This document shows positions 26,722-46,645 of a DNA stretch of 64,000 nucleotides, piece by piece. This DNA comes from an uncultured Selenomonas sp. (GTDB lineage: Bacteria; Bacillota; Negativicutes; Selenomonadales; Selenomonadaceae). A program made the translations under genes and the position numbers. Position 1 is the first letter of the stretch, and each line of letters opens with the position of its first letter. Location: assembly GCA_902780535.1 (NCBI GenBank), contig CACZFT010000003.1:1-64000 (forward strand). Direction: 5' to 3'. The notes under the pieces were generated by a model, which was given only the letters and a program-made list of their open reading frames with translations, was not told where the DNA came from and ran no database searches.

Positions 26722-26725
26722 GCTC

Positions 26726-27853: not shown

Positions 27854-27854
27854 G

Positions 27855-29986: not shown

Positions 29987-29989
29987 CGA

Positions 29990-31270: not shown

Positions 31271-32469
31271 TGGAGCACCTCGCAGAGTTCCTTCTTGATG
31301 GGCGTCATCAGGAGATCATGCTCCCATACAGCATAAGACTCAACATGCGTGAATCCCTGCGGCTGGAGCTGCGCAAGAATTTCATCCGCATAGAGATTGG
31401 TAACAATGATATGAGCATCTTTCGGAAGCTCTGCTGGCGACAAGCACGGAACTCCGTCAAGAGATGTTCCCCATACCTTCGGATTGCTGTCTGAAACTCC
31501 GTCCACCGGAATACCGCGCCATCGGAGCGATGCGAGAAAGCGCCGTCCAATGCGCCCGGCACAATAGATATACGTCCCCGCAGCCCCCGAATGAAGCTTG
31601 CGCCTCAGTTGCTCGCGCAACGCTTCCCCGTCAGCCGGCTCTTCCAACTTTTGCAAAGCATTCACCAAAACCTGCTCCGCCCGATGCCATCCTTTGAAAG
31701 AAAAGCGCGACAGCAGCGTCGAATAAAGAAGATACGGTGAAACGCCGCTCCGCTTCACCCCTGCATCCTGTAAGCCCTCCAGAATCCATGTCCAAAGCTG
31801 CTCTTCCTCTGCTGACATGCCCGCATAAGTGGCTGTCACCTGCTTCTCATGCACGCGCGAGCCCACAAGGCTCTTGTCAACATAAGCAAGCTTCTGATTC
31901 TTGAACATCCGGAACCACTGCTCATAGTCATTGACCGCGCGCACACGCTCATCAAAACCGCCGAACTCCTCGAAATACGATTTTGGAATTAGGAGCGTAC
32001 AACCGCTGATGAGACCCATCGCTACTGCAAACCATCCCGTCTCAACGAGATTTCTTCCAAAGCGCAGATTCTTCATCCGATAGCGGGTTCCGCTCGGATA
32101 CCGAACAAAATCGCAGTCCGAAAACACTGCCCGGTTCCAGTCGCCACAATCACGGAGCGCATCTACTTCCGCTTCAATCTTGTCCGGCGCATACCAGTCA
32201 TCATGCGACAGCCATGAAAAATACGCGCCCTTCATTTCCCGAATAGCCAGATTCAACGCCGTCGCCACGCCGCCATTTTCCTTCTCGAAATAACGAATCT
32301 TGTCGCCATACGACAAAGCAATCTCGCGCGTATCATCCGTAGAACCATCATTCACGACGAGAATCTCAATATTCGAATATGTCTGCGCGAGCGCGCTGTC
32401 AATGGCCTCACGCATGAAGTTGCTGCCATTGTAGACAGGAATGACGATAGAAACGAGTGGATCTTGCAC
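31267..32469 (-). CDS. Family 2 glycosyltransferase with C-terminal Rossmann-like module (GT2c)
   Basis: About 400 residues. The GT-A domain starts VSIVIPVYNGSNFMREAID, with VVNDGSTDDTREI and WLSHDDWYAPDKIEAEV. The C-terminal third begins GTYIYCAGRIGRRFL, the recurring YGxGxxG module. The start is chosen at GTG 32469, which has GGGAGGTC upstream; an earlier TTG would leave the ribosome site inside the gene. It is separated from the rest of the operon by the antisense rpn gene. Confidence 0.88.
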   Translation of the reverse strand: MQDPLVSIVIPVYNGSNFMREAIDSALAQTYSNIEILVVNDGSTDDTREIALSYGDKIRYFEKENGGVATALNLAIREMKGAYFSWLSHDDWYAPDKIEAEVDALRDCGDWNRAVFSDCDFVRYPSGTRYRMKNLRFGRNLVETGWFAVAMGLISGCTLLIPKSYFEEFGGFDERVRAVNDYEQWFRMFKNQKLAYVDKSLVGSRVHEKQVTATYAGMSAEEEQLWTWILEGLQDAGVKRSGVSPYLLYSTLLSRFSFKGWHRAEQVLVNALQKLEEPADGEALREQLRRKLHSGAAGTYIYCAGRIGRRFLASLRWRGIPVDGVSDSNPKVWGTSLDGVPCLSPAELPKDAHIIVTNLYADEILAQLQPQGFTHVESYAVWEHDLLMTPIKKELCEVLQ

Positions 32470-32525
32470 CCTTATGACCTCCCATTGCAAAACCGAGGAA
32501 ATATCTCTTCGCCACCTCGATTATC

Positions 32526-32554
32526 TTGCCAACCAAGAAAAATCTATGTAAAAT
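32526..32554 (+). promoter_or_regulatory. Promoter of rpn
   Basis: TTGCCA (32526-32531), 17-base spacer, TAAAAT (32549-32554) on the plus strand, about 25 bases before the start codon. Confidence 0.65.
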
Positions 32555-32578
32555 AAGAATTATAAAGGAAGTGACAGT

Positions 32579-33481
32579 ATGGCGAACCGGCAAGTCAAGG
32601 ATTCTGTCTTTCGCAAGCTCTTCAACAACCGCAAGGAACTCGCGGAACTCTATCAGGCCATCCAGCCAGACATCGAAGTGCTTCCCCAAGACCTCAAAAT
32701 CACGACGTTGCGGAACGTCTTCCTCGACAGCCAGAAGAACGACCTCTCATTCCTCTGGAAAGGCAAGTCCGTCGTCCTCATCGAGCACCAGAGCACATGG
32801 AACGAAAACATGCCGCTCCGGATGCTGCCGTACATCGACAAGATGTATCGAAAAATCATCAAAGAACGGGATGCCAAGCGCGCCATCTACCTCTCGAAAC
32901 TCGTCAAAATCCCGACACCGAAGTTCTACATCCTCTACAACGGCCCGAAACTTCCCGAGCCCCGTCCAGAACTCAGGCTTTCCGATGCTTTCGAGGACCC
33001 ACAGAATGGCGACCTTGAGCTCATCTGCCATGTCATCGATATTTCTTATGACTGCAACAACAAAATCCTGAATGCCTGCCGGCCGTTACGCGACTATAGC
33101 TATCTTGTCTACCTCATTCATGAGAACAAGCACGCTGGCATGACTGATGACGAGGCCATCCGTCATGCGGTGCTCGCCTGCATCGACCAAGGCATCCTAA
33201 AGAATTTCCTCAAGCAATACGGCAAGGAGGTTATCAACATGTTTTCACTGCAATGGAACGAAGAAGAAGCCAGGAAATACCGCGAAGAATACGCTGAAGA
33301 AGTCGGTCTACAGAAAGGTCTACAGAAGGGACGCTCGGAAGGACGTACAGAAGGAAAAGGTGAGATGATCCTCAACATGCTCAAAGAGCACATGCACCTC
33401 GATGCCATCGAGCGTTTCTCCGGCTGGTCTGCCGAACAGATTCGCGCGCTCGCGAAGAAGAACGGGCTTGCAGTTGAATGA
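32579..33481 (+). CDS. Rpn-family recombination-promoting nuclease (PD-(D/E)XK, putative transposase)
   Basis: 300 residues. N-terminal DSVFRKLFNNRKELAELYQAI, then NDLSFLWKGKSVVLIEHQST, which carries the D...ExQ nuclease core of the PD-(D/E)XK type, then PTPKFYILYNGP and a C-terminal KGLQKGRSEGRTEGKGEM repeat rich in Gly/Lys/Glu that is typical of this group. Relatives are RpnA-E nucleases that stimulate RecA-independent recombination. It is antisense to the surrounding operon, with its own promoter and AAAGGAAG ribosome site. No terminal inverted repeats were seen. Confidence 0.85.
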   Translation: MANRQVKDSVFRKLFNNRKELAELYQAIQPDIEVLPQDLKITTLRNVFLDSQKNDLSFLWKGKSVVLIEHQSTWNENMPLRMLPYIDKMYRKIIKERDAKRAIYLSKLVKIPTPKFYILYNGPKLPEPRPELRLSDAFEDPQNGDLELICHVIDISYDCNNKILNACRPLRDYSYLVYLIHENKHAGMTDDEAIRHAVLACIDQGILKNFLKQYGKEVINMFSLQWNEEEARKYREEYAEEVGLQKGLQKGRSEGRTEGKGEMILNMLKEHMHLDAIERFSGWSAEQIRALAKKNGLAVE

Positions 33482-33495
33482 ACCTTGTGATGCCA

Positions 33496-34620
33496 TCATT
33501 TTCTCTCTACATATGCATCTAATAATTCCACGATTGGAAAGTCGTGCGAATCTTCCCCATCTAGAACAATCATCAAAATTTCTCGTTGAACAATATCGCG
33601 ATAGTACTGCAGTTCAAAAGCCACCCACTTTGAAGCGCGAGACCGCTCCGAGCTCAGATACGCGAGCCTTTTCGCGTGTTGCATGCGAAATTTCAATACT
33701 TCTTCCGTATACTGTGACACCAAGCTCCGCCGCAGGAACTCACGATCTGCTGTCCAGTCGACATAGCAGCTCAATCCCGCCGCATTTGCTTTCTTTACAA
33801 AGGAACGAACCTGTTCCTTGTCCTGATAGCTATGTGACACAAACAAATCATACATCTTGACATACTGTACGGATTTTTGCTGTCGCAATTGCTGCGCCAG
33901 CAATTCCGGCGTTCCCACAAGATCAGCTTCCTCACGCATATACGATTTCTGCTTCCCTTTGAAATGTTTCCGAAGCCGTACATAATGCCCTATACGCTGC
34001 AAGACATGGAATGCATATTCGCGAATCTGATCGTTCCTCTCGCTATCATTCAACTTCCAGAAAAACGCCCACACTTTTTCACAATCGAATTTCTGGATTT
34101 CCTTGCAGATTTCCATCTTATCATTCGTTGTCGCTCCTCGCTGATGATATGCAACCATCATGGCATCCAGAAAGCCAGGGTCGATTTCTTGCAAATCCAA
34201 ATGCTGTTCTTCGCGCTTTCTTCTCATTTCCGCATTTTTGTGTTCGCGCTTCTGGCGATATGCGAGCTCCAGCCGCACTCGTTCGGCTTCATCATATTCT
34301 CGTTCATGCTTGACGCGATACCCACGGCTCAACAGCTGCTTGACTTTCTGCAAGCTGAAGAAAAACTGCTCCGCCCTCACTGGGTGATATCGCGTCTTTT
34401 TCCCCTTGCGTTTCAAAAATGCATCTTTCGCGCGATAGAGGCGATACCTCTCTTCCAGCATCTCCCATACATACGGATAATATTCCCGATAGCAATCTAG
34501 CAGGTCTTTCTCTGTATAGCCAGGCTTCAATGTCTTGACAATCTGATTCAATGGACGCGTCATGCTCTTGGAAATCCGCATGTTTTCCGCCTGATATTTC
34601 CGCTTCGTTTTTCCTGACAT
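33496..34620 (-). CDS. TIR-domain protein, candidate immune effector
   Basis: 374 residues. Residues 1-255 are highly charged and helical, with long Lys/Arg/Glu runs (HEREYDEAERVRLELAYRQKREHKNAEM), perhaps coiled coil. The C-terminal ~115 residues look like a bacterial TIR domain: YDLFVSHSYQDKEQVRSF, GLSCYVDWTADREFLRRSL and RASKWVAFELQYYRDI, where Glu near 336 may be the NADase residue. Bacterial TIR domains commonly cleave NAD or make cyclic ADP-ribose signals. It follows a small membrane protein by 18 bases, and its DNA looks more A/T-rich than its flanks. Alternative: a regulatory or scaffolding TIR protein. Confidence 0.8.
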   Translation of the reverse strand: MSGKTKRKYQAENMRISKSMTRPLNQIVKTLKPGYTEKDLLDCYREYYPYVWEMLEERYRLYRAKDAFLKRKGKKTRYHPVRAEQFFFSLQKVKQLLSRGYRVKHEREYDEAERVRLELAYRQKREHKNAEMRRKREEQHLDLQEIDPGFLDAMMVAYHQRGATTNDKMEICKEIQKFDCEKVWAFFWKLNDSERNDQIREYAFHVLQRIGHYVRLRKHFKGKQKSYMREEADLVGTPELLAQQLRQQKSVQYVKMYDLFVSHSYQDKEQVRSFVKKANAAGLSCYVDWTADREFLRRSLVSQYTEEVLKFRMQHAKRLAYLSSERSRASKWVAFELQYYRDIVQREILMIVLDGEDSHDFPIVELLDAYVERK

Positions 34621-34638
34621 AGCGGATTTCTCCCTTCG

Positions 34639-35073
34639 TCAAGCAACCAAAAAATAGAACAGGAACATCGTCACAGCGATGCCACCATAAAACCAAAATT
34701 CCGTTTTTGAAAACAGGCAGTTGCGATAACGGATGCAACGCACTTCTGCATGATCTTTGCAGGCAATGTTTCGCACATCCATATCAAAATCAATGCTGTC
34801 ATTTGACAACTCAATGACCCTCTTGAAAAGCACCCTATACTTTCTTTCCGTTCGAAGGTACCATGCATCCAGCAACCAAAATGACAGGAGAGGAACGAAT
34901 GCCAAAAGAAAGCATCGCTTGTCATTCGCTTGCGTGGAAATCGTCCCCACAAGCGAAATCAGCGCAACAGCCCATCCTTTCAGCTTGAAGCTGTTGCTTC
35001 CCATCCGACCGATCACAGCCTCGATCATTTCCAGATGCTTGATCTTGCAGTCACAGGAATTGCCGTCCATCAT
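34639..35073 (-). CDS. Small three-helix membrane protein paired with the TIR protein
   Basis: 144 residues with three hydrophobic segments: GWAVALISLVGTIS near 33-48, FLLAFVPLLSFWLLDAWYL near 55-74, and WFYGGIAVTMFLFYFLVA at the very C-terminus. An amphipathic N-terminal helix (KHLEMIEAVIGRMGSNSFKLK) precedes them. The plan resembles small SLATT-like membrane effectors but is not a firm match. The start overlaps the end of GT2b by 23 bases, so it is translationally coupled to it. With the next gene it forms a two-gene TIR/membrane pair. Confidence 0.7.
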   Translation of the reverse strand: MMDGNSCDCKIKHLEMIEAVIGRMGSNSFKLKGWAVALISLVGTISTQANDKRCFLLAFVPLLSFWLLDAWYLRTERKYRVLFKRVIELSNDSIDFDMDVRNIACKDHAEVRCIRYRNCLFSKTEFWFYGGIAVTMFLFYFLVA

Positions 35074-36304
35074 TTCCCATCCTCACATTTGGTTTCTTTA
35101 TCACCGATCCAGCCAGTTCCCGCTCTGCAGCTTCACGGATCAACTTCGCATCGATCCTTCGAATTTTCTCTTGGGGGACGCCGAGCTGCTTCAGGTCTTC
35201 GACGGCCTCGTCGGCGATGTTTGCCTTGATGATGCTGATGAGGACGATGTCGTATGTGATCGACTGGATATTCTCCCTCGCGATGACGCCTGGCCGATTC
35301 GGCGACTTGTCCGCCCAGGCTACGACGCGATAGCCATGGTGGTCAAGATATACTTTAATCTCCTTACCCACTTTTCCTGCACCGTACAAAATGATATCCG
35401 CCCACTGCGGGACAAGGCCGAACGGGTACAGATAATCCCCATCCTGCAATATGACCGCCTCTGCATCACGAATCATCATCACACACGTCCAGATGAAACA
35501 GTACTGCCGCAGAATATTCGGGATGCGTTCTTCCGCCTCTAGGAACTTCCTCCGCAAGGTTCGAAAATAAAGCGCAATACGCTCAGCATCATCTATCCGC
35601 TTCGTTCCGACAATCGAGTCGTTTCGTAGACAATAATGGTATAAAAGTTTTCCAGACACGCAAATGCAGTTTGCATGCAACATCGCAGGAATCACCACGA
35701 CATAATCTTCACCAAAAACAATACGGGGATTCACATCATTTTGGAAACGGCGAAGAACCTCTGTACGAAAAACTTTTCCGCACAAGGACAAGACCACCGA
35801 CGATTGATAAAAACGATCGAGAAAAATGATATGAGACAGCAACCACTCAATCCGTTCACTGCGATAAACACCTGCCGGCGCGGATTCTGGATCCTCCATC
35901 CGATATGTCTCATAGTCGCGATAAAATCCAGAAGTCACAATGTCCGCGTCCTCACGCAACGCAATGTCCATCAGCGTTGCGAACATATCTGGCTCTACAA
36001 AATCATCTGAATCGATGCAGGCAACGTAAGGACTTGTTACTAGCTTAAGTCCCGCAATTCGTGCGCTGACAAGCCCACCGTTTTCTTTATGCAGAACGGT
36101 AAGCTGCGGGTATCTTTCTGCATACTGATCTAATATCTCTCCACTGCGATCTGTCGAGCCGTCATCCACGCAGATAATTTCTCGCACCAGCTGCGTCTGC
36201 CCAAGGATGCTCTCAAGGCAGCGACTCAAATACGGTCCGACATTATAAACAGGAGCAACAACGGAAAGCGGCAACTTGGCAGCACTCTTTTTTACGCACT
36301 GCAT
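35051..36304 (-). CDS. Family 2 glycosyltransferase with C-terminal Rossmann-like module (GT2b)
   Basis: 417 residues. The GT-A domain begins LSVVAPVYNVGPYLSRCLESIL, with CVDDGSTDRSGEIL and ACIDSDDFVEPDMF. From about residue 310 the module ADIILYGAGKVGKEIKVYL begins, with WADKSPNRPG after it. ATG at 36304 is chosen because GGAGGG lies six bases upstream; the ATG at 36310 touches it. A G8 tract 50 bases upstream could change the coupling with the preceding gene. Role: sugar transfer to the surface glycan; donor unknown. Confidence 0.88.
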   Translation of the reverse strand: MQCVKKSAAKLPLSVVAPVYNVGPYLSRCLESILGQTQLVREIICVDDGSTDRSGEILDQYAERYPQLTVLHKENGGLVSARIAGLKLVTSPYVACIDSDDFVEPDMFATLMDIALREDADIVTSGFYRDYETYRMEDPESAPAGVYRSERIEWLLSHIIFLDRFYQSSVVLSLCGKVFRTEVLRRFQNDVNPRIVFGEDYVVVIPAMLHANCICVSGKLLYHYCLRNDSIVGTKRIDDAERIALYFRTLRRKFLEAEERIPNILRQYCFIWTCVMMIRDAEAVILQDGDYLYPFGLVPQWADIILYGAGKVGKEIKVYLDHHGYRVVAWADKSPNRPGVIARENIQSITYDIVLISIIKANIADEAVEDLKQLGVPQEKIRRIDAKLIREAAERELAGSVIKKPNVRMGNDGRQFL

Positions 36305-36349
36305 TTGCATCCCTCCATTGTGGATAATTCAAAATTGATTAATTTTTGA

Positions 36350-37786
36350 TTACCCCCCCCGTTTTTTATTTTTTAATTTTTTATAGTTCATTTTGCAATG
36401 ATCCAGTTCCCTTTCCAGGCGCTCTCCAAATTTCTCGATAGAAAAATGCCTTTCGTAAACTTTCCGCCCGCATGCGCCGATTGATTGCCATTGCTGTTTT
36501 GCCGCCAGCACGCGTTCCATAGCACTCGCCAGATGACCTGGCTGGTTGTCCTCGCAGACAAATGCATTGACTCCATCCGCAAGATATGATACCAAGCCGT
36601 TGTTCCTTACTGTCAGGCAAACCTTCGCATGCATCAACCCCTCCACGCAAACCGTGGAAAGCATCTCCTCATGCGAAGCACAAACAACAACATCGATATA
36701 TCGATAGGCCTCTTCCATCTCGCTGCGCGTCAAAACGCCTTTGCATTTCACGCAAGAGAGAGCTTGTGCCCGCTCCACCACCTCGCGCCCATAGGCACTG
36801 GAACTCTGCGCACCAATAATCCAAAACTCCGCAGCTACATCAGGATGTCCTTCCTTTAGGATTCGCACCGCATCTAAAAATTCTCGCTGTCCTTTGTTGG
36901 CGTCGCAATACCCGATGATAGCAAATACAGGACGACCTCCTACCATATTCCATTTATCCCATGTATCGGGGATGCCATACGGCATTACGCCAATCGAAAC
37001 GCTTGGGTAATGTCGTAAAAAGACCGAGGCCGCCAAACGACTCACAGCCATGACGTGTATGCCATCCATCTCACGTTCTGAATCATGCGCATGAAATTGA
37101 TAGCGCATACTAGGATAGTTATTGGCATACGGCTCCCCTGCATCATGTATCCACCAGAAGGTTGGCATCATTCGCCGCATGGTACACGCTACGCGAATAT
37201 TTGAAAAAACGTTGACAAGCAAGATATCATATTGCGCAATCCACGTCTCTTCAGTCGCAGAAAGATACGGGATTGTTGGACAGCAAACGAATGTAATGCC
37301 ATTCGATTGAAGTTCTGCTTCCATATCTGGATGCATATAAGGGGCAGAAATCGTTACCTGGTAGCCACGTCGTTGCAAAGCACGCGCTGCAAACGTCAAT
37401 ACGACACTCGCGCCATCATACTTCATTTCATCCGAAAGCATCAGCACAGATGGCCGGCCGTCCTTCACAACCACAGGTAGTTGAAATGTACCACGCACCT
37501 TTTGAGCGCGATACTCCCCAAAGAACGAAATTTTTTCTGCAGGAACGTCCATTTCCAATAATTGTTCGCGCATTTCATGAACGCTGTTGCTCATGAGCAA
37601 GATTCGATCATACGAGACTTCGCGGATTTCCTTTGGCAAGTAAACGGGACGCCCGTCTATTACCTGCCCCGCGCTGGAATGATTATCCAAAAAACCGACA
37701 ATTTTGTCATCACCGAGGACATCCGCAAGCGCTACTTTCCGATTTGCGTAAAAAATGCCCGTCCCAAATAACAAGATTTTTTCCAT
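36350..37786 (-). CDS. Family 4 glycosyltransferase with N-terminal Rossmann-like module (GT4a)
   Basis: 478 residues. Residues 1-95 form the shared module (MEKILLFGTGIFYANRK, VGFLDNHSSAGQ, GRPVYLPKEI). The GT-B part follows with SVLMLSDEMKYDGASVVL, WWIHDAGEPYANNYPS, VFAIIGYCDANKGQREFLDAV and VCASHEEMLSTVCVEGLMHAK. The C-terminus, KKLKNKKRGG, is encoded by the A-rich and G8 tract at 36353-36360, so its length depends on the tract. A G7 tract lies just before the start. Confidence 0.88.
   Translation of the reverse strand: MEKILLFGTGIFYANRKVALADVLGDDKIVGFLDNHSSAGQVIDGRPVYLPKEIREVSYDRILLMSNSVHEMREQLLEMDVPAEKISFFGEYRAQKVRGTFQLPVVVKDGRPSVLMLSDEMKYDGASVVLTFAARALQRRGYQVTISAPYMHPDMEAELQSNGITFVCCPTIPYLSATEETWIAQYDILLVNVFSNIRVACTMRRMMPTFWWIHDAGEPYANNYPSMRYQFHAHDSEREMDGIHVMAVSRLAASVFLRHYPSVSIGVMPYGIPDTWDKWNMVGGRPVFAIIGYCDANKGQREFLDAVRILKEGHPDVAAEFWIIGAQSSSAYGREVVERAQALSCVKCKGVLTRSEMEEAYRYIDVVVCASHEEMLSTVCVEGLMHAKVCLTVRNNGLVSYLADGVNAFVCEDNQPGHLASAMERVLAAKQQWQSIGACGRKVYERHFSIEKFGERLERELDHCKMNYKKLKNKKRGG
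36353..36360 (-). repeat. G8 homopolymer at the GT4a/GT2b junction
   Basis: Eight G on the minus strand inside the last codons of GT4a (CGG GGG GGG TAA). With one G fewer, the frame runs on and stops at 36292, past the GT2b start codon, which would couple the two genes. Confidence 0.8.
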
Positions 37787-37799
37787 GATGGATGTTCCT

Positions 37800-37806
37800 C
37801 CCCCCC
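37800..37806 (-). repeat. G7 homopolymer just upstream of GT4a
   Basis: Seven G on the minus strand, 13 bases before the GT4a ATG. An upstream ATG preceded by GAGGGA reads through the tract. With six or nine G it would be in frame with GT4a. Confidence 0.75.
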
Positions 37807-37884
37807 TTGCGAACCATCAACTGTATCCCTCGATAGTAGAGTAAGCGATTCACCACACCTTATTCCGCCGATCCCATGATGTTT

Positions 37885-38935
37885 TTAAATCGCGTACAGC
37901 ACTGTATCAAAATACCCCAGCGAATAATGCCGCAAGTAGAACTTGTAATCTGGATGATAGCTCAGCAAGAGATCTGGCAGAGTGAAGATGTCCTCGGGAC
38001 GATGGTAGATGGAAATTGCGAGCTTCGGACGATACTTGTGGATGGACTGTTCTGCGCCTTTGAGCGCGCGCAGTTCCGAACCCTCGATGTCCATCTTGAT
38101 GAACGTCGGCCGGACGTCGCCGAGGATGTGTTCAATCGTATCGACGGGCACGATGGCGTCGCCTTCGTCTCCTACATGCGACTGCTTGCGGCCGTCGGCA
38201 ACGAAGCGAAGTTCTGTCTCCTTATCCCATGCACCTTTCGGCACGATGGTGACATGCTCGTGCCCTGCCATGCGCTCACGAATCTTCTGCTGGTTCGCCG
38301 GGTCTGGTTCCAAACAGAAAATCTGCTGATAATCGCCATTCGCCCAGTCGATAAAGAAACACGCCGATTCCCCGTCATAGCTGCCGACATCCACGAAAAC
38401 TTCATTCGGTACATGCGGCAGCTCTGGCAGATCAAAGTAGATGGACGTATAGACAACGTCCTCCACCCAGCCGCCAACGTCCAGAATCGATGATTCTTCG
38501 ACACCCAGCGAAAGAAGCTGTTCCTTCATCTCTTTATGATAAGGTCGCGACGTGATGACAACGGTTGCATTTGGATGCTCTCGGATGTCTTTTGGCGCAA
38601 TCACGGGCTTTCCCATGAGCAGCGTTCCCTGTTTTGCCTTCGCATTGTCAAGGAATCCTGCGAGCTTCATCGGCCAGAGGTCGGCAATCATCCGACCGTA
38701 ATCGCCCGTGCCAAACAACCAGATTTCTTCGGCACTAAAGATACGGTTGCGCAAATACCCCCCCCGAGTTGAACAAAGGTACACTGTCACGAATCATTTC
38801 TTTCAAATATCGATCGTCGCCCGTCATCGCGTACTGAACGCGATTGTCATAAATGCGTCGCGAGACCTCATCCATGAAATGTGCGCGACGATTTTCTGCA
38901 TTGGCTTTTACGGGATCAAAAATGTCTTTATCCAT
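37885..38935 (-). pseudogene. FkbM-family methyltransferase with Rossmann-like module, split at a G8 tract (phase-variable)
   Basis: FkbM enzymes O-methylate sugars with SAM. The N-terminal 60 residues (MDKDIFDPVKANAENRRAHF) end NSGG at the G8 tract at 38758-38765. As read, the frame then stops after VFAQPYL. With seven G, the same frame gives NSGGYLRNRIFSAEEIWLF and the complete ~350-residue protein: the shared module EIWLFGTGDYGRMIADL, then FVDVGSYDGESACFF (SAM site), FCLEPDP and TFIKMDIEGSELRALKG. A one-base change therefore switches it on. ATG at 38935 has GAGGTG upstream. Confidence 0.85.
38758..38765 (-). repeat. G8 homopolymer inside the second FkbM gene
   Basis: Eight G on the minus strand break the FkbM frame; seven would restore it. 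Confidence 0.85.
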
Positions 38936-38943
38936 AACGAATA

Positions 38944-40107
38944 TCACCTCGTGATTCCATGTGGGCTTGAAACGGCGTTTTTGCGAGCCTGTCGTCCAGC
39001 AGGCACCAATTTGTCGTTATCCTGTCCACAGCCACCACAAATCTGGCACAGCCCGACAAATCCACCTGCGAGCTCGCCGAGGCAGTGGCAGGCAATTTCG
39101 TGGCGGTCTTCTCTTTTCAACGTGTGAAGATCCACGCAGTCTCTCGCCTGAAGTCGATAGCGGCCGATGTTCGCTGCACTCCACACAACATGGCAATAAA
39201 AGATTTTTCCTTCGTTGTAGCCATGGAAGATTGGGGAACAGGCAATCCGATGTGCTTCACACGCTTCTGTCGCAAACTGAAACGGCTTCTCTGGAAATCC
39301 GAAATCACGCCACTCTTTCATCCTTGTGACCGTTGTCTGGATTGCCTTCTCATTCAGTAAAGATTGCAACTCTTTCAGACGCTTCTCGTACGGTACTTCC
39401 TGCGTATAATCGCTGATGCTGACCCATGTATCTGCGGCCGCAAGAAACGTAAGCAAACGTTCATCCGGCAGCAAGGTCCCGTTCGTGATAATCTTGATGA
39501 CACCGATACGATTGCGATAGGATGTTTTTAAAACTTCAAGAAACTCGGCAAGATTTTCATACAAGAATGGTTCTCCGCCAAGGAGCGTCAAACAGCCAAG
39601 GTAATCCACATACTGAAACAAGAGCTTGATTTCTTCTTTCAGTTGGCGCAGAGGAAATGTCACGGGATTGGAATAATATGGCACGAACATATTGCAATTC
39701 GCACATTTGAGCGTGCACTGCATCGTCAGTGCCATATGGAGTTCCATCAGAACATTTTCCTGCCGATATGTCCAATACCACCAGGTAAGGAAATATTCAA
39801 TGGCACAAAAATCTCTGTATTCCTTCAATCCAGCTACTATCAGAGAGGCTGCGATTTCTTGATAAACCCGGCCGCCGGTCATGACAAGGATTTTTTGTCC
39901 TGTACGACGCGCCAGACCTGATTCCGGTGCCAAGAGTTGATGTCCCTTCCAGCTATCCTGCTGCTCCCCCATCTTATCCATGATATAGTCCACTGAGAAG
40001 TCTCGCTGAATCTTTGACAGGCATGCTTGTGCAACATTGCCGCATCCATAGAGAATGACATGTCTCACGTCCTCCCAATCCGGCGTCAGTCTGTTTTCCA
40101 TCCTCAT
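38944..40107 (-). CDS. Radical SAM enzyme with N-terminal Rossmann-like module
   Basis: 387 residues. Residues 15-105 carry the shared module (HVILYGCGNVAQACLSKI). From about residue 125 a radical SAM domain begins: LTMQCTLKCANCNMF gives the CxxxCxxC cluster site, then LTLLGGEPFLYENLAEFLEVL. The C-terminal Cys cluster CHCLGELAGGFVGLCQICGGC suggests an auxiliary Fe-S cluster of SPASM/twitch type. Its substrate is unknown; the locus suggests a sugar or glycan-linked group. AGGAG lies just before the start. Confidence 0.85.
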   Translation of the reverse strand: MRMENRLTPDWEDVRHVILYGCGNVAQACLSKIQRDFSVDYIMDKMGEQQDSWKGHQLLAPESGLARRTGQKILVMTGGRVYQEIAASLIVAGLKEYRDFCAIEYFLTWWYWTYRQENVLMELHMALTMQCTLKCANCNMFVPYYSNPVTFPLRQLKEEIKLLFQYVDYLGCLTLLGGEPFLYENLAEFLEVLKTSYRNRIGVIKIITNGTLLPDERLLTFLAAADTWVSISDYTQEVPYEKRLKELQSLLNEKAIQTTVTRMKEWRDFGFPEKPFQFATEACEAHRIACSPIFHGYNEGKIFYCHVVWSAANIGRYRLQARDCVDLHTLKREDRHEIACHCLGELAGGFVGLCQICGGCGQDNDKLVPAGRQARKNAVSSPHGITR

Positions 40108-40114
40108 GTCACTC

Positions 40115-42265
40115 CTATACCTCCAACGGAACTTCCTTGCTCCCTACCATGTCATTGTCAAAATAAAATCCTTTCAGGATGTCTGACGAGATTTGCGCAC
40201 CTCCGTCCAGGAAGGCATAATACGCAGCAGCCTCGACACCATCCGCCCCGCTTTCAGAATCCATAGGCAAAATTTCGACGGCGTCCGCCATGTATTCGCA
40301 AATGCCTTCATTCACACGTTCTTTGATTGCAAACTGCTTCTGGTTCTCCCGATCTGGTTCCGTAACCATGTTGCCATCATCATCAATCAAGCGAATCATT
40401 CCATATGGAGCTGTCAGAAAGCTTTCCAAGAAATTCCCCTTCTTCCGCAATACACACACCGTTGCCTTCGGATCGCTATCGGATTGGAAACAAGCTTCCA
40501 TATCATTCACCTGACGATACGGATTTTGCTCCGATAAGTCTGCAAGAAAATAGAACCCAGGAAGCTCCATCTTCACAAACCGCTGGAAGTAATACTGCGT
40601 TGTCCCATAAAAACTAAAATCAACGATTCCTGCAGGCTGCTCCAAATTTCCCAGAATTCCTGAAAGGTACCTGCGATAATTGCGTTCTTGCCGCTTCTGT
40701 TCTGTCCAGATACGCGACTCATATGGCTGAAGCCATTTCAGCAAAGTGTCATCTTCATCCGTATGGACATCTTCTGACGCATGCACATCAGCTTCATCCA
40801 CCTTCAGATTGAAGCGCTGGAACAGATAATCACGAAAAGATCCAAGAAAAGCAAATGATGCAACCCGGCGGTAATCTGCCTCGGTATGCATGGTTGCCAG
40901 ATAAATGAGCTGTCTCGAAATAGGCACAAATTTTGTATGAATATCCGGCAGAGTTTCTCTCAAACGGAGAAAGTAGCGAAAATCGCGCTCCAAAAAATAT
41001 CCATCCCGAGCAAAAAACAACAACGTACGCAAATGACACGTTTTCACACGCGCTGCTAGCCACTCACAAAAACGCAGCATGACGCCGCCAAAAACGGCAT
41101 AACCAAACGTCTCCGCATCTCGGAATGGGACTTTTCCTCGGGTATCATGCAAAACAAAAGGATTCTGAAAAAGTCTTGCTGTTGAAAGTCCCAACCGAAC
41201 ATCGTCGCGCCAATTTTTCGCTACTGCCACAACACGGCCGACAGAAGATGCTTTGAGCATGTCCGACGAACTCATGAGGTAAAACGCATCAATCTCATGT
41301 TTCCGAGCCTGCTCGATATCGCTTTTCCAATTGTCGCCTATGTGCAAGATGCGTGCATCCGGATATGTTGCTTTTAAGAGCGCAAACAGTTCTCCATCCG
41401 CCTTGCTCTTCTGCAGCTCCGAAGAAAGAAGCACCTGCCGCTCCGGCAAAATGTCCAATGCACGATGGGACAACAATTGATAAAATTGTTTGCCGGAAAC
41501 ATACGTGTCACTCGTAATAAAAACTTGCTTCCCCATCTGGATCGCGCGGCGAAATGCCTCCACAACGGGAACGCGCACAACCATCAGTTCTTCTTCCAAA
41601 GAAAGTTCGAGTTCTTCGATGTGCCATGCCACCTCTGGCGACATGCCCGTCCTATTCACAATCCCTTCATAGAGTTCGTCTAAGGTTGCAAAGGGCGAAC
41701 AGGAAGCTGCAATCGTCTGGCGCAAGGTCGCGAAATCAATCCCGAGATGAAATTTCCTCTCCACCCTATCGCCTAGAATCGCAAATGCATCCGTCGGGGT
41801 CATTGCCTTGCGCGTAACGAGCGTATCGAAAAAATCAAAGGAGACAATATCATGGGCGTCTATCGCCATCTGCAAATCTTGCAACGTCTTTCCCCAATAA
41901 GGATTCGTTGCATAAGAAGTCTCCCGCCTTGCAGCACGTTCCCCATTTGCATAATAAACTGGAATCTCCACATCATTTGCGATGCGTTCATAAATAACAC
42001 GGAAGTTGCTCGGATCGGAATTGATGATGATGATATCCGCGATTCGATTGACCTCATCGAGCGCACAGATAGGAATCCCGTTGATTTCTTTTCCAATGCT
42101 TTCTTTCGCACGATCCAAAAGGGCTATAACATGAAAATCACGAATCGCCGGCAAGAGCGTCATCGTTCGGCGACCGATGCCATAAAGCGCAATCGCCTTC
42201 CCCTTTAGACGGGAAAATTTTTCACGGAAATCTTTCTGTTCCTTTTGATACTGGTCGCCAGCCAT
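40115..42265 (-). CDS. Large HAD-superfamily protein with N-terminal Rossmann-like module
   Basis: 716 residues. An N-terminal module (KAIALYGIGRRTMTLLP) precedes a HAD domain: SFDFFDTLVTRK near residue 145 (nucleophile Asp), VFITSDTYVSGK near 245 and HIGDNWKSDIEQARK near 315 (acidic motif). A long C-terminal region follows (LLFFARDGYFLERDF, FVPISRQLIYLA, IVDFSFYGTTQYYFQRF). It matches the polysaccharide-cluster predicted hydrolases COG5610. Substrate unknown; a sugar- or polyol-phosphate is plausible. It contains no membrane segment. Confidence 0.85.
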   Translation of the reverse strand: MAGDQYQKEQKDFREKFSRLKGKAIALYGIGRRTMTLLPAIRDFHVIALLDRAKESIGKEINGIPICALDEVNRIADIIIINSDPSNFRVIYERIANDVEIPVYYANGERAARRETSYATNPYWGKTLQDLQMAIDAHDIVSFDFFDTLVTRKAMTPTDAFAILGDRVERKFHLGIDFATLRQTIAASCSPFATLDELYEGIVNRTGMSPEVAWHIEELELSLEEELMVVRVPVVEAFRRAIQMGKQVFITSDTYVSGKQFYQLLSHRALDILPERQVLLSSELQKSKADGELFALLKATYPDARILHIGDNWKSDIEQARKHEIDAFYLMSSSDMLKASSVGRVVAVAKNWRDDVRLGLSTARLFQNPFVLHDTRGKVPFRDAETFGYAVFGGVMLRFCEWLAARVKTCHLRTLLFFARDGYFLERDFRYFLRLRETLPDIHTKFVPISRQLIYLATMHTEADYRRVASFAFLGSFRDYLFQRFNLKVDEADVHASEDVHTDEDDTLLKWLQPYESRIWTEQKRQERNYRRYLSGILGNLEQPAGIVDFSFYGTTQYYFQRFVKMELPGFYFLADLSEQNPYRQVNDMEACFQSDSDPKATVCVLRKKGNFLESFLTAPYGMIRLIDDDGNMVTEPDRENQKQFAIKERVNEGICEYMADAVEILPMDSESGADGVEAAAYYAFLDGGAQISSDILKGFYFDNDMVGSKEVPLEV

Positions 42266-42298
42266 TCCTAACTCGCCCCCTTGTCTGGATTCGTCATT

Positions 42299-43327
42299 TT
42301 ACAAGCAATACAAGACCGTCTCGGATTTCATCAATGCGTAGTGTCGCAGATACATCCGATATTTCGGATTGAGCGACAAAATATAGTGAGGAAGTTCAAG
42401 AATATCTTCTGGCTTGTGATAAATGCTGATTGCTAATTTGGGATGCTGCATGCGAATCGTTTTCGCCGCTCCCTGCAACGCTTCCATTTCAGAGCCTTCG
42501 ATATCCATCTTGATAAACGTAATTCGCTTGCCTGCAAGTTCTTCATCAATCGATGTCACGGGAACACAAATATTGCCATGTTCCGCAACATTGCTTCCAA
42601 CTTTGCCCAGTCCATTAAACCGTAACTCGCGCCGATCACGCCAAACGCCGTAGGGCAGGAGTGTTGTTCGTTCTTCCGAAATCGTCTTCAACGTTTCTTT
42701 GCACGCGGAAATGTTTTGCGGATCTGGCTCGAATGCATAGATATGGCAGAAATCTCTTGCCCATTCTGCAAAGGCTCGCGAAGATGCCCCATCAAAGGCT
42801 CCTGCATCGACAAAAGTTTCGTCCTTTTCATGAGGAAGGTTTGTCAGATCAAAATATGCTTTCTGTTCAAGCGCATCTATGATCTTATCTACCCGTACGA
42901 TACGTTCTTCTCGAATGCCCATATCTGCAAGTTGTTTGGCAATCTCATTTTGATAATGCTTCCCCAGTTTCCGTACGGAAAGAAAAATACGACTATCTGG
43001 ATGTGCATAAATCTCTTTGGGTGGGGACAATTGTCACCCCCCCAATTTTTCTCCCCACTTTTTTACATCATTGTCACAGATGCCTATGAAATGATCTGTT
43101 GCAAGGGCACAAACAACCTTTCCATAGCCACCAGCACCAAAAATAAGATTGTTGCGTTGTTGGTCAATCAGTGCCTTCAGTGCCTGCACCTCGGGAATTG
43201 ATGCGATGATGTCCAAGATATGGCGCTCATCTCCCGTTGCAGAATAAAGTAATCGCTTCTCAAAAATGTATTTCGAGAAATCATCCTGCAAGTGTTGATA
43301 AATTTTTCTTCCGTCCGTGATATTCAT
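42299..43327 (-). pseudogene. FkbM-family methyltransferase with Rossmann-like module, interrupted near 43037
   Basis: The N-terminal part (MNITDGRKIYQHLQDDFSKYIF) carries the shared module NNLIFGAGGYGKVVCAL and ends EKLGG followed by TGA in a G7 tract. Downstream, in the same frame, come PPKEIYAHPDSRIF, TFVDAGAFDGASSRAF, YAFEPDPQ and FIKMDIEGSEMEALQG, a complete FkbM core. If the G tract had eight G and the next C run three C, the protein would read GGVTIVPPKEIYA without a stop. So two small changes, or one internal restart, separate it from an intact gene. A paralogue of the gene at 37885-38935. AGAGGAATC lies before the start. Confidence 0.8.
43037..43043 (-). repeat. G7 homopolymer inside the first FkbM gene
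   Basis: Seven G on the minus strand directly before the in-frame TGA at 43034-43036. Confidence 0.75.
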
Positions 43328-43368
43328 GTAGATTCCTCTGCTATTGCATGTAACTCTTTTTCCGCAAA

Positions 43369-44556
43369 TCATGCCAAGTGTTGCTCAATTACATCCGCCA
43401 CGCGCTTGCTCGCCTCTCCGCTTTCTTCGACGCCACATTCGCGAAAAAGCTTTCCGAGCTTTTCGAGATACGCTGTCTGCTGGAATCCCGCAATCCGTCG
43501 TCCCATTTCGCCGTCATCTTCCGCGAGCGGGAATGGCAGGTCTCTGAGATCCCACAGCAGCTTGCCGCGCTCGCCTTCGTATGCGCTGTAGTCGTCGCAG
43601 TAGAGGAAGACGGGGATGTTCATGACGGCGGCGTCGAAGGCGGCGCTGCTGTAGTCAGTAAGGAAGGCGTCGCAGGCGGCGAGGAGTTCGTACATGTCGT
43701 CGACGGTGCTGACGTCGATGAGGTCTTGATTCTCGGCGTGTGCGGCGATGTGGCGAGCGGTGAGCTGCGGGTGGAGGCGGAGGAAGATGACCCAGCGGCC
43801 GCCGAATTTTTCGCACAGGGCGCAGAGCAATCGGTTGTAGTCAGGCGCGTGATCGCCTTTTTCAATCGTGCGGTTCGTCGCCTGGCTGCCGCCGCGGAAC
43901 GTCGGGCAGTACATGAGGATGCGGGTGTCCGGCGCGAGGCGGTATTGCTCGCGGATGCTGCGCCGCTGCGCGTCGCGGCCGCCGATGAGGATATCGCATC
44001 TCGGCGAGCCGCTACGGAGTGTCGGGCCGGTGTAGATCATGCCGGTCGGGAGCGTGCGGTCATACCAGTCGGAGTTCGAGAGCACGAGGTCGATCATGGC
44101 GGAGTCGTGGCGGCTGACGAGCTCGGCGATGCGCGAGAACGAGGCGCCGCGATCGAGGCAGGTCGGCTTGAATCCGAGCTTCGCATGCCAGGTCTGGAGG
44201 TAGAACTGGCCTTTGCGCTTGCGGACTTCGAGCTGCTTGCGACTGTTGTCCACCCAGACAGCGGCCGTCGAGAGTTCTCTTGCCCGATTCCAGAGCGTGT
44301 TGTGCACTTTGCGGATGCCCTTCGGAAACGGCTTCGTCATGTCGTTGACGAGCCAGACGAGGTCATAGCCCTTGCTGCGCCGCAGGAGTTCGAGCGCGAT
44401 GTATTTCGGGTTGCAGGTGAAGCCTGTCGTGCCTTCGATGGTCGTGAAGACGATCTTGCTGCGCTGGATGGGACGGAGCCGCCAGAGATAGAACGGGAGG
44501 CTCTGGATGGCGGCTTTGAGCTTGCGCTTCCAGAGATAGAACGTATCGCTCGCCAT
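43369..44556 (-). CDS. CDP-glycerol glycerophosphotransferase-family protein (TarF/TagF-like)
   Basis: About 395 residues, matching the family that transfers glycerol- or ribitol-phosphate from CDP-polyols to build teichoic-acid-like chains. Markers: VFTTIEGTTGFTCNPKYI, WVDNSRKQ, YLQTWHAKLGFKPTCLD with the conserved TWHG-like site, and MYCPTFRGGS, FLRLHPQ and AFLTDYSSAAFDAAV. No membrane helix is seen, so it would act at the membrane surface. It overlaps or abuts the SDR gene; ATG at 44556 has GGAG seven bases upstream. Confidence 0.9.
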   Translation of the reverse strand: MASDTFYLWKRKLKAAIQSLPFYLWRLRPIQRSKIVFTTIEGTTGFTCNPKYIALELLRRSKGYDLVWLVNDMTKPFPKGIRKVHNTLWNRARELSTAAVWVDNSRKQLEVRKRKGQFYLQTWHAKLGFKPTCLDRGASFSRIAELVSRHDSAMIDLVLSNSDWYDRTLPTGMIYTGPTLRSGSPRCDILIGGRDAQRRSIREQYRLAPDTRILMYCPTFRGGSQATNRTIEKGDHAPDYNRLLCALCEKFGGRWVIFLRLHPQLTARHIAAHAENQDLIDVSTVDDMYELLAACDAFLTDYSSAAFDAAVMNIPVFLYCDDYSAYEGERGKLLWDLRDLPFPLAEDDGEMGRRIAGFQQTAYLEKLGKLFRECGVEESGEASKRVADVIEQHLA

Positions 44557-44558
44557 GG

Positions 44559-45605
44559 TCACGCTCCTTCGTAGTTCTGCAGGAGGTATTCGAGCGTGTA
44601 CTGGAAAGCTTTTTTGAGACCGACGCGCGGCTGCCAGCCGAGCGCCTGCACATTGGAGACGTCCATGATCGCGAGCTTAAAAGGCAGATACTGGAGCTTG
44701 CTTTTTTCATCCGCAAACCGGACACGGACGCGCTGGCGCGGGTCGAGGCTCGCGATGAGCTCGGCGAGGTCTCGGATGCTGACGAGGTTGTCGAGGTTCG
44801 CGACGTTGTAAAAAGCGCCGTTTTCGCCATTCGTGGCGATGAGCAGCATGGCGCCGACGGCGTCAGCAACGTAGGTGTATGTGCGCATGGCGCTGCCGTC
44901 GGACTGCAAGACGATGTCCTCGCCGCGCACGACATCGCGCAAAAACTCAGCGAATGCGCGGCCGTCATCGAGCGCGATGCCGGGGCCGAACGTATGGCAG
45001 AGGCGGACGCCGTTGTACGTGACGCCATACTGTGCGGCGTAGCTCGCGAGCATGGTCTCGCAGAGGCGCTTGGCCTCGGGGTAGCAGGCGCGGGCGCGGT
45101 TGCAGATTATCAGGCCCATGTCGGTTTCCTTGATCTTTTCGTCATGCTCCCAGGCGCCATAGGTTTCGACGGTGGAAACGTAAAAGACGTGGCAGGCAGG
45201 CTGTTTCCGCGCGAGCTCGAGGACATTGCGCGTGCCCTGCACATGCCCCCAGAGCGTGCCGACGGGATTCTCTGTGAAGTCTTTCGGACTCGCAAGGCCG
45301 GCGGTGTGAAAAATATAATCGACGGCAGGCACGCTTTCAAACGATGCCGTGATGTCCTGCACGATGGTGCTGACGTTCGGCAGGCCGAGGGTCTCGCCAA
45401 AGACGCGCTGGAGCTTTTCGGCGCTGCGCGCCATGGCGATGGTGTGCAGGCTGAGGTTCCATTCGATGTCAGCATGGGCCAGCGTCTCGACAATGTACAT
45501 GCCGAGGCGTCCTGTTGCGCCGGTGACGAGGACGGTCTTGCCGCGAAATTTCTCCCAATCAATCGGGCTTTCGAGAATGATGCCGATGTCGCGCTGTTCT
45601 ACCAT
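44559..45605 (-). CDS. NAD-dependent epimerase/dehydratase (extended SDR)
   Basis: 348 residues. TVLVTGATGRLGMYIVETL gives the NAD loop, VDYIFHTAGLASPKDF the SDR core, and YPEAKRLCETM the catalytic YxxxK. TFGPGIALDDGRAF and YNVANLDNLVSI are typical of nucleotide-sugar epimerases. It sits between a CDP-polyol cytidylyltransferase and a polyol-phosphate transferase, so its substrate may be a CDP-activated polyol or sugar; this is inference. AGGAGACTTTTC precedes ATG. Confidence 0.88.
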   Translation of the reverse strand: MVEQRDIGIILESPIDWEKFRGKTVLVTGATGRLGMYIVETLAHADIEWNLSLHTIAMARSAEKLQRVFGETLGLPNVSTIVQDITASFESVPAVDYIFHTAGLASPKDFTENPVGTLWGHVQGTRNVLELARKQPACHVFYVSTVETYGAWEHDEKIKETDMGLIICNRARACYPEAKRLCETMLASYAAQYGVTYNGVRLCHTFGPGIALDDGRAFAEFLRDVVRGEDIVLQSDGSAMRTYTYVADAVGAMLLIATNGENGAFYNVANLDNLVSIRDLAELIASLDPRQRVRVRFADEKSKLQYLPFKLAIMDVSNVQALGWQPRVGLKKAFQYTLEYLLQNYEGA

Positions 45606-45620
45606 GAAAAGTCTCCTGTC

Positions 45621-46349
45621 TCACAGACCAAAAACAAATTTATTTTCTTCGAGTTCGATCATGGCCTTGAGGTAATAGAAATCTTCCGGCGTCGTGATCT
45701 TGATGTTGCGGTTCTGTTCCTTGACGAGATGCATCTTTTTCCCCGTGCTGGCATAGACCATGGCCGCATCAAGGAGCGGCATGCCGCCCGCGCTTTCCTG
45801 CGCGGACCGATAGGCCGCACGGATGTCGCCGAGACGGAAGGACTGGGGCGCGGTCAGCGAATACGTGGCCGCGCGCTTCTTGACGTCCTGCATCTCCGCG
45901 TCCGTGTTCTCCGTGATGACGACGGACTCGATAACGGGCGCGACGGTCACGGCGCAGCCGTACTGCTGCGCGACACGGACGTTCTCGCGGATGGTGCGTT
46001 CCTCGACGAGCGGCCGGACGCCGTCGTGGATCAGGACGATGTCATCCGCCTGCCCGCCGATGTCCTCTGCGGCCTCGAGACCACGTTGCAGGCTCTCCTG
46101 CCGGTCGCGCCCGCCGACGACGATGCGCTGCACTTTGCCGATATGGTAAAGCGCGAGCAGGCTCCGCATGTGGTCGAGGTAGCCTTCGCGGCAGACGATG
46201 ACAACGCAGTCGACGTCGTCGCACTGCTCGAATTTTTCCAGCGTATAGATGATGATGGGCTTGCCGAAAAGCTTCAGGAACTGCTTCGGCAGGCCCGCCG
46301 ACCGCATGCGCTGCCCGACCCCGGCCGCAAGGATGATGGCAATGTTCAT
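45621..46349 (-). CDS. IspD/TarI-family cytidylyltransferase (probable CDP-polyol synthase)
   Basis: 242 residues of the IspD/TarI group: IAIILAAGVGQRMRSAGLPKQFL at the N-terminus (CTP loop), VVGGRDRQESLQRGL, VLIHDGVRPLVEE and TAPQSFRLGDI. Following it are an SDR and a polyol-phosphate transferase, so making CDP-ribitol or a related CDP-polyol is more likely than the isoprenoid step. It is the first structural gene of the locus. ATG at 46349 overlaps the stop of a 76-codon leader ORF (ATGA), with GGAGG before it. Confidence 0.88.
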   Translation of the reverse strand: MNIAIILAAGVGQRMRSAGLPKQFLKLFGKPIIIYTLEKFEQCDDVDCVVIVCREGYLDHMRSLLALYHIGKVQRIVVGGRDRQESLQRGLEAAEDIGGQADDIVLIHDGVRPLVEERTIRENVRVAQQYGCAVTVAPVIESVVITENTDAEMQDVKKRAATYSLTAPQSFRLGDIRAAYRSAQESAGGMPLLDAAMVYASTGKKMHLVKEQNRNIKITTPEDFYYLKAMIELEENKFVFGL

Positions 46350-46576
46350 GCAGCGCCTCCGTTCCCGGATTTTCCAAGCTTCCACGATGTTCCAGGCACG
46401 ACAAAAAGGCACGCCATCTCGACCGTCCCGGTTCTCTTCGATGGAAAAGAATGGAAACGGCCAAGATGGCGTGCCTGATATGCGGTTTTGATGGAATCGT
46501 CAGGTGTGGATAAAGCGAGGTTTAGAGAATCATTCTTACCCCCCCCGTTTATGAATTTTACGTTATAAAAATTCAT
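46346..46576 (-). CDS. Leader ORF with G8 tract, coupled to the cytidylyltransferase
   Basis: A 76-codon ORF that starts MNFYNVKFINGGG. AAAGGAA lies just before its ATG, and the ATG is in a 9-base inverted repeat (46551-46559/46568-46576). Codons 11-13 are the G8 tract. With seven or nine G, the frame stops within ten codons. The in-frame version crosses a terminator-like hairpin and ends TGA inside the next gene's start (ATGA). The amino acid sequence resembles nothing I know, so it is probably regulatory translation rather than a working protein. That is inference. Confidence 0.55.
   Translation of the reverse strand: MNFYNVKFINGGGKNDSLNLALSTPDDSIKTAYQARHLGRFHSFPSKRTGTVEMACLFVVPGTSWKLGKSGNGGAA
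46403..46476 (-). terminator. Terminator-like attenuator hairpin in the polysaccharide leader
   Basis: On the minus strand AGGCACGCCATCT (46464-46476) pairs with AGATGGCGTGCCT (46407-46419). The stem extends inward with few mismatches, and five T follow at once. It lies inside the leader ORF, about 55 bases before the first structural gene. Confidence 0.7.
46539..46546 (-). repeat. G8 homopolymer in the leader ORF
   Basis: Eight G on the minus strand forming codons 11-13 (GGG GGG GGT) of the leader ORF. Seven or nine G leads to an early stop. Confidence 0.8.
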
Positions 46577-46606
46577 TTCCTTTCACCCCTGACGTTTGAT
46601 ACTCTT

Positions 46607-46635
46607 ATCATAGCATATCGTCCGGAGTTTGTGAA
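46607..46635 (-). promoter_or_regulatory. Promoter of the polysaccharide operon
   Basis: Minus strand TTCACA (46630-46635), 17-base spacer, TATGAT (46607-46612). Predicted start near 46600, about 25 bases before the leader ATG. Confidence 0.7.
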
Positions 46636-46645
46636 CCCAGGATTT

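Follow-up and report, generated by a model that had tools for sequence, protein, structure and literature searches.

A probable G-tract-switched, translation-coupled attenuator leader of a polysaccharide operon in an uncultured Selenomonas sp. and related Selenomonadaceae

We report that an uncultured Selenomonas sp. carries, in front of a polysaccharide operon, a leader that is probably a slippage-switched transcription attenuator combined with translational coupling. The leader lies in a stretch of 64,000 nucleotides (contig CACZFT010000003.1 of assembly GCA_902780535.1, positions 1 to 64,000), which was analyzed as a whole and is called the window. This reading draws on the layout of the reading frames, a covarying hairpin, conservation of the element in related copies, differences in tract length between these copies and a leader peptide under little or no amino-acid selection, all as they appear in the DNA. 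Table 1 lists the features of the leader and of the gene cluster behind it.

Table 1. Features of the leader and the polysaccharide gene cluster in the window
Feature	Coordinates	Strand	Remark
Leader promoter, TTCACA-N17-TATGAT, extended -10 (TG)	46607..46635	-	Consensus match only
Leader ORF	46346..46576	-	76 codons (aa) at G8
9-bp hairpin enclosing the leader start codon	46551..46576	-	Arms ATGAATTTT/AAAATTCAT
G8 tract	46539..46546	-	Predicted to select one of three frames for the leader ribosome
Staggered stops, TAA 46538-46536 and TAA 46524-46522	46522..46538	-	Close both other frames
DnaA-box-like site, TTATCCACA	46505..46513	-	25 nt past the G8 tract
Terminator-like hairpin (23 bp + internal loop + 8 bp), then U5	46403..46476	-	Within the leader ORF
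ATGA overlap	46346..46349	-	Leader stop TGA with ATG (46349) of the next gene
First structural gene, IspD-family cytidylyltransferase	45621..46349	-	242 aa
Polysaccharide gene cluster	25441..46349	-	Interrupted by antisense gene 32579-33481
Third G8 tract, within FkbM-methyltransferase gene	38758..38765	-	
Second element: G8 (36353-36360), TAA and TTATCCACA (36319-36327)	36319..36360	-	End of a glycosyltransferase gene

The first-pass annotation of this DNA had proposed a phase-variable, translation-coupled attenuator composed of a promoter, a 76-codon leader ORF, a G8 tract, a hairpin followed by T5 and an ATGA overlap with the first structural gene. All of these parts were found on the minus strand, and the leader ATG was indeed enclosed in a 9-bp stem. 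The frame arithmetic was also correct: G8 gives the full 76 codons, while G7 leads to a stop after 17 codons and G9 to a stop after 13. The staggered stops that close the other two frames are 60 and 46 nt upstream of the hairpin. The gene upstream of the leader has a deaminase match, and we take it to be TadA-like. Since the window contains three G8 tracts where 0.82 would be expected, a single G8 tract is by itself unremarkable.

The long hairpin (46476-46407, with T5 after it) has a predicted folding energy of -51.5 kcal/mol and a z-score of -10.6, and none of 200 shuffled sequences folded as well as the window leader. The hairpin was absent from the calls of a simple terminator scanner, and its role as a terminator is therefore argued from the stem, the U-run and conservation. 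The efficiency of termination is uncertain because the stem is far longer than that of a usual intrinsic terminator and the U-run has only 5 residues.

From this layout we infer slippage (and its rate), termination, ribosome-mediated read-through and coupling, which would work together as follows. RNA polymerase would start just upstream of the leader, as the promoter match suggests, and a ribosome would enter the leader ORF and reach the G tract, which begins after 10 leader codons. When the tract belongs to the G8 class (hence also G5 or G11), the frame would stay open, and the ribosome would traverse the hairpin behind RNA polymerase and finish at the ATGA where the first polysaccharide gene begins, so that the operon is ON. 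When one G is added or lost, the ribosome would stop 3-17 nt past the tract, with 46-60 nt still to go to the hairpin. This structure would then form, transcription would end, and no ribosome would be delivered to the next start, so that the operon is OFF. The assembly carries the ON tract length (G8). The first-pass annotation envisaged a switch that needs no protein factor, but a trans factor may act at the DnaA-box-like site, which has a fixed spacing from the tract.

Including the one in the window, searches of related genomes gave 10 copies of the leader, all at polysaccharide loci. They are distributed over the window genome, two congeners (G006 and G001) and a further genus of the Selenomonadaceae. 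The DNA search of relatives yielded C32 in the window genome, G006:C14, G001 C182, C133, C167 and C117, and G020:C25. The copy at G006:C14 is the orthologue of the window leader (87% identity over the matched part), and that at G020:C25 is a distant copy from the other genus. The profile search added C84 (G001) and touched C59, which the covariance model matched as a short copy without a tract. No further clear leader copies were found with the covariance model across 189 genomes of the family. Weak profile matches in G144 and G024 and weak covariance-model matches in G090 and G142 lacked the features of the leader and were discarded. The family has a narrow distribution, being present in 3 of the 7 genomes of the genus and in one other genus.

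Seven copies besides the window leader have their own promoters at different loci (G006:C14; G001:C182, C133, C167, C117 and C84; G020:C25), with a -10 region TATGAT or TAAGAT in the same place. The start-codon hairpin appeared similar by inspection in G006, C182 and G020, and was weak or absent in the others. Where the first downstream gene was identified, it was polysaccharide-type or plausibly so: IspD-type behind the window leader and in G006, a CDP-glycerol transferase in C182 and C32, a nucleotidyl transferase in C167, LicD in C84, and an MptE-like protein in C133 and G020. In C117 it is presumably a SIS/phosphoheptose-isomerase-like protein, as read from its sequence.

We compared the frames of those congeneric copies that are full-length and retain an intact tract, seven in all (the window leader, G006, C182, C133, C167, C117 and C84). 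Each of them has a single frame that continues across the hairpin, and the remaining two frames meet a stop 3-23 nt past the tract, at a distance of 39-66 nt upstream of the hairpin. In five copies (the window leader, G006, C182, C133 and C167) the open frame terminates at the ATGA of the next gene. In C84 it runs a few nt past the point where that gene begins, and in C117 it falls about 9 nt short of it. The tract-to-stop distances are 160, 171, 172, 190 and 217 nt, and their phase is constant across the copies, allowing for a one-base difference after the tract in C182.

The first-pass annotation had expected a leader frame that is maintained in relatives and a tract that is not of fixed length. 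The related sequences lend support to its overall reading. The first expectation was borne out, in that relatives retain the open frame as well as the stop/start overlap. The second held between species and between loci, the range covered with one genome per species: the tract has 7, 8, 9 or 10 G across species and paralogues. By present tract length, two of the seven copies would be ON (the window leader and C167, both G8) and five would be OFF (G006 with G7, C182 with G10, C133 with G8 after an extra A, C117 with G10, and C84 with G9). As for the other copies, the tract of C32 is broken and its upstream part replaced, with an open frame. C59 has lost the tract; its hairpin is shortened to -23 kcal/mol, and its frame is open and overlaps the start of the next gene as ATGA. 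In G020 none of the frames extends across the hairpin, the longest one reaching as far as its base, which indicates that coupling is not universal.

We then analyzed what is conserved in the leader, the hairpin or the peptide. The hairpin energies in the folded copies were between -47 and -61 kcal/mol, and 10 of the 33 pairs were changed on both sides. In the alignment, 93% of the hairpin cells were paired, compared with 44-57% when the structure was slid along the sequence, and none of 500 shuffles was as good. For the leader peptide, pN/pS between copies was 0.55-1.07, and the changes were distributed evenly over the codon positions, which suggests that there is little or no clear amino-acid selection and that the frame is kept instead; the reading of the leader as a functional protein was dropped on these grounds. 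When the observed number of substitutions (for C84, a guessed number) was placed at random in simulations, the frame stayed open in 21-62% of the trials per lineage. The openness of the frame by itself is therefore moderate evidence for a maintained frame, and together with the kept phase it makes a stronger case.

The first-pass annotation had placed about 22 kb of genes under the control of the switch. The minus-strand gene run behind the leader encodes epimerases, a CDP-glycerol transferase, FkbM methyltransferases, a radical SAM protein, glycosyltransferases and capsule-type NDP-sugar enzymes; beyond 25441 there are housekeeping genes (PhoH-like, Era-like GTPase and RecO). However, because the antisense gene at 32579-33481 breaks the run, control of the whole 22 kb is not assured, and the extent of the controlled region is uncertain. 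The antisense gene (plus strand) has a weak PD-(D/E)XK nuclease/transposase match. The cluster also encodes a TIR-like domain protein (33496-34620, minus strand), for which PF13676 scored just below and PF08937 above the cut-off.

Two further G8 tracts lie in the cluster. In the second element, a G7 tract would carry the frame of the glycosyltransferase gene 18 nt beyond the start of the next gene. No hairpin was seen at 36319-36360, and the element is possibly a coupling switch without a hairpin. The gene with the third tract would encode, from the ATG at 38875, 329 aa at G7 versus 46 aa at the present, out-of-frame G8; with its tract in a structural gene, it looks like the plain poly-G contingency form. 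A G12 tract is found in apparent coding sequence just outside the window (G000:C3:72422-72433, minus strand).

It may be that the leader tract acts by coupling without attenuation. The tract would then decide whether a ribosome arrives at the next gene, transcription would be little altered except via later polarity, and the hairpin would be an RNase III or stability element or a structure that blocks the start. We regard this as rather unlikely. The ATGA overlaps retained in most leader copies would be consistent with it, as would the leader stem, which exceeds the typical terminator length, and the second tract of the cluster, which has the stop layout and the read-through to the next start with no hairpin. 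On the other hand, the U-run directly after the stem is kept in the leader copies, and G020 has retained the hairpin without coupling, its frame ending at the hairpin base, as attenuation alone predicts. Another use of a G run is known from H. pylori, in which control of tlpB by RepG through a G-repeat is gradual and antisense-RNA-based (PMC8295292). It is very unlikely that a C-rich small RNA binds the leader G run in the same way, with the length of the run tuning expression. The variable-length G run in an mRNA leader at a surface-polysaccharide locus resembles this precedent, but the Selenomonadaceae tract follows 10 codons of an open frame, staggered stops are present, and the frame across the hairpin is kept in phase, none of which RepG requires; control of tlpB is not frame-based, whereas that of the leader would be.

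There is equally little to recommend a dispersed, MITE-like repeat, or a plain end-of-gene terminator of the upstream gene, with an ORF present by chance. The element is multicopy and palindromic, and the window copy is located just after the presumed TadA-like gene. However, each intact copy comes with a -10 region of its own and with a leader start at a constant offset, and directly precedes a polysaccharide-type gene, in phase with its start. Still less probable is an attenuator that responds to a ligand or to starvation (a riboswitch or a trp-type leader), with the G run as an invariant part of its structure. A closed leader fold around the start codon and, in several copies, a suggestive Shine-Dalgarno complementarity to a site past the tract would agree with such a device. 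Against it, the Rfam scan of the leader returned no family match at gathering score, only sub-threshold chance matches, and no obvious run of regulatory codons was seen. A fixed-leader riboswitch was dropped because the length of the G run varies between copies. The helix that would sequester the Shine-Dalgarno sequence had single-copy p values of 0.01 to 0.35, which is suggestive only, and was omitted from the mechanism. As in trp- and his-type attenuators, leader translation would decide whether the terminator forms; the signal in those systems is charged tRNA, whereas here it would be the heritable tract length.

The slippage-switched attenuator proposed here has a known counterpart. In Streptococcus gallolyticus, the leaders of the pil1 and pil3 pilus genes contain GCAGA repeats (Danne et al. 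2014, PMC3894217). For pil1 the logic was shown by mutation, in that out-of-frame changes in the GCAGA repeats extend the leader as far as the hairpin or into it; the short frames of pil1 and pil3 end 39-49 nt before the hairpin, the hairpin energies are -18.7 and -28.2 kcal/mol, and one variant has a frame that stops at the base of the hairpin (PMC3894217), which is also the case in G020. In both systems a short leader ORF, located behind an operon promoter (by consensus only in Selenomonadaceae), contains a simple sequence repeat, and the long frames reach or cross the hairpin. In the Selenomonadaceae the short frames stop 39-66 nt before it and the long frame crosses it or, in G020, reaches its base. 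The predicted outcome is likewise ON/OFF control of a surface-structure operon via ribosome-mediated antitermination.

The two systems also differ. The Selenomonadaceae leader has a mono-G tract and polysaccharide genes, and not the pentanucleotide GCAGA repeats and pilus genes of the S. gallolyticus family proper. Its hairpin is about twice as strong or more, its stop overlaps the start of the first gene, it is present at up to seven loci in one genome, and it has a DnaA-box-like site past the tract. By analogy, the leader would work like that of pil1 without being a member of its family, and homology is not expected. The poly-G/C contingency loci of Campylobacter and Neisseria have the tract in a structural gene or promoter. 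The leader would resemble them in G-tract slippage and frame-dependent ON/OFF switching, and it shares with them an association with surface loci. However, its tract is in a leader, placed to control an operon, and the product shows no clear selection (pN/pS 0.55-1.07), so that it is not a structural-gene locus of that kind. To our knowledge, repeat-switched attenuation has so far come only from streptococcal pili. Compared with the pil1 kind, the mono-G tract, the predicted translational coupling, the multiple copies, the polysaccharide target and the occurrence in Selenomonadaceae are new.

The association between the G tract and the DnaA-box-like site is the most novel part of our findings. 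We searched 189 Selenomonadaceae genomes for tracts of G7 or longer with TWTCCACA behind them, allowing 31 different spacings, and counts per spacing were transcribed by hand from the listings for the statistics. Of the 53 matches, 42 were within three neighbouring spacings of about 25 bp (binomial p about 6e-33). Among other Negativicutes and other Bacillota, the same band contained 1 of 31 matches (Fisher p about 2e-12). Both p-values are inflated by related copies, as the counts take in the leader family and some pairs of orthologues, but several genera are represented and the sequences of the sites are otherwise unlike. CCACA is invariant in all 8 aligned leaders. The motif is found in leader ORFs, at coding starts (a TPS adhesin and a capsule-synthesis protein) and in promoter-like sequences with TATAAT between the tract and the box; genes nearby encode an SLH porin, flagellin, MBOAT acyltransferases, an FhaC-type transporter and a GNAT acetyltransferase. 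In a genus sample of 30 G8 tracts, drawn regardless of the box, only 2 had the exact box at this spacing, indicating that the box is not general to G tracts. The fixed spacing of TTWTCCACA after G tracts suggests a DNA-level element.

At one tract-and-box locus, two 1.95-kb stretches that are 99.7% identical (3 substitutions and 3 gap positions) have G8 and G11, respectively; at another motif locus, sequences with 97% identity over 1.6 kb and a single gap have G8 and G7. As judged from these alignments, some motif loci show a tract that changes faster than its surroundings. It is conceivable, if doubtful, that in Selenomonadaceae the G tract and a box about 25 bp away form a portable phase-variation module at the DNA level, used equally in promoter-like regions, in leader attenuators and within coding sequences, in which a box-bound protein, possibly DnaA, raises or times slippage. 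No literature joining phase variation, a homopolymeric tract and a DnaA box was found, and among papers naming phase variation and Selenomonas none was, by title, on Selenomonas phase variation.

Other arrangements were seen among the sites. A match outside the spacing band (L178) lies in an origin-like sequence with several boxes. At G002:C177:9213 and C213:4735, the tract and box lie upstream of a TATAAT that points leftward; the C run falls in the region of the -35/-10 spacer, and tract and box are slightly farther apart. Six tracts of the genus sample without the exact box (L237, L241, L252, L257, L259 and L264) have TGTCTT or a similar hexamer, G8 or G9, and a TATAAT-like hexamer about 10-13 nt on, and are apparently phase-variable promoters.

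If the attenuator reading is true, repeat-switched attenuation would also operate at several polysaccharide loci of rumen-type Selenomonadaceae (we infer the rumen origin). The natural copies with G7, G8, G9 and G10, together with the tract-less copy, make the mechanism directly testable. If the box is functional, it would raise the rarely asked question of whether slippage at contingency loci is targeted by a bound protein, and if the module reading is true, mutation at loci with a G tract and box would be programmed and not passive. Leader switches at several loci would give these bacteria combinatorial variation of the cell surface.
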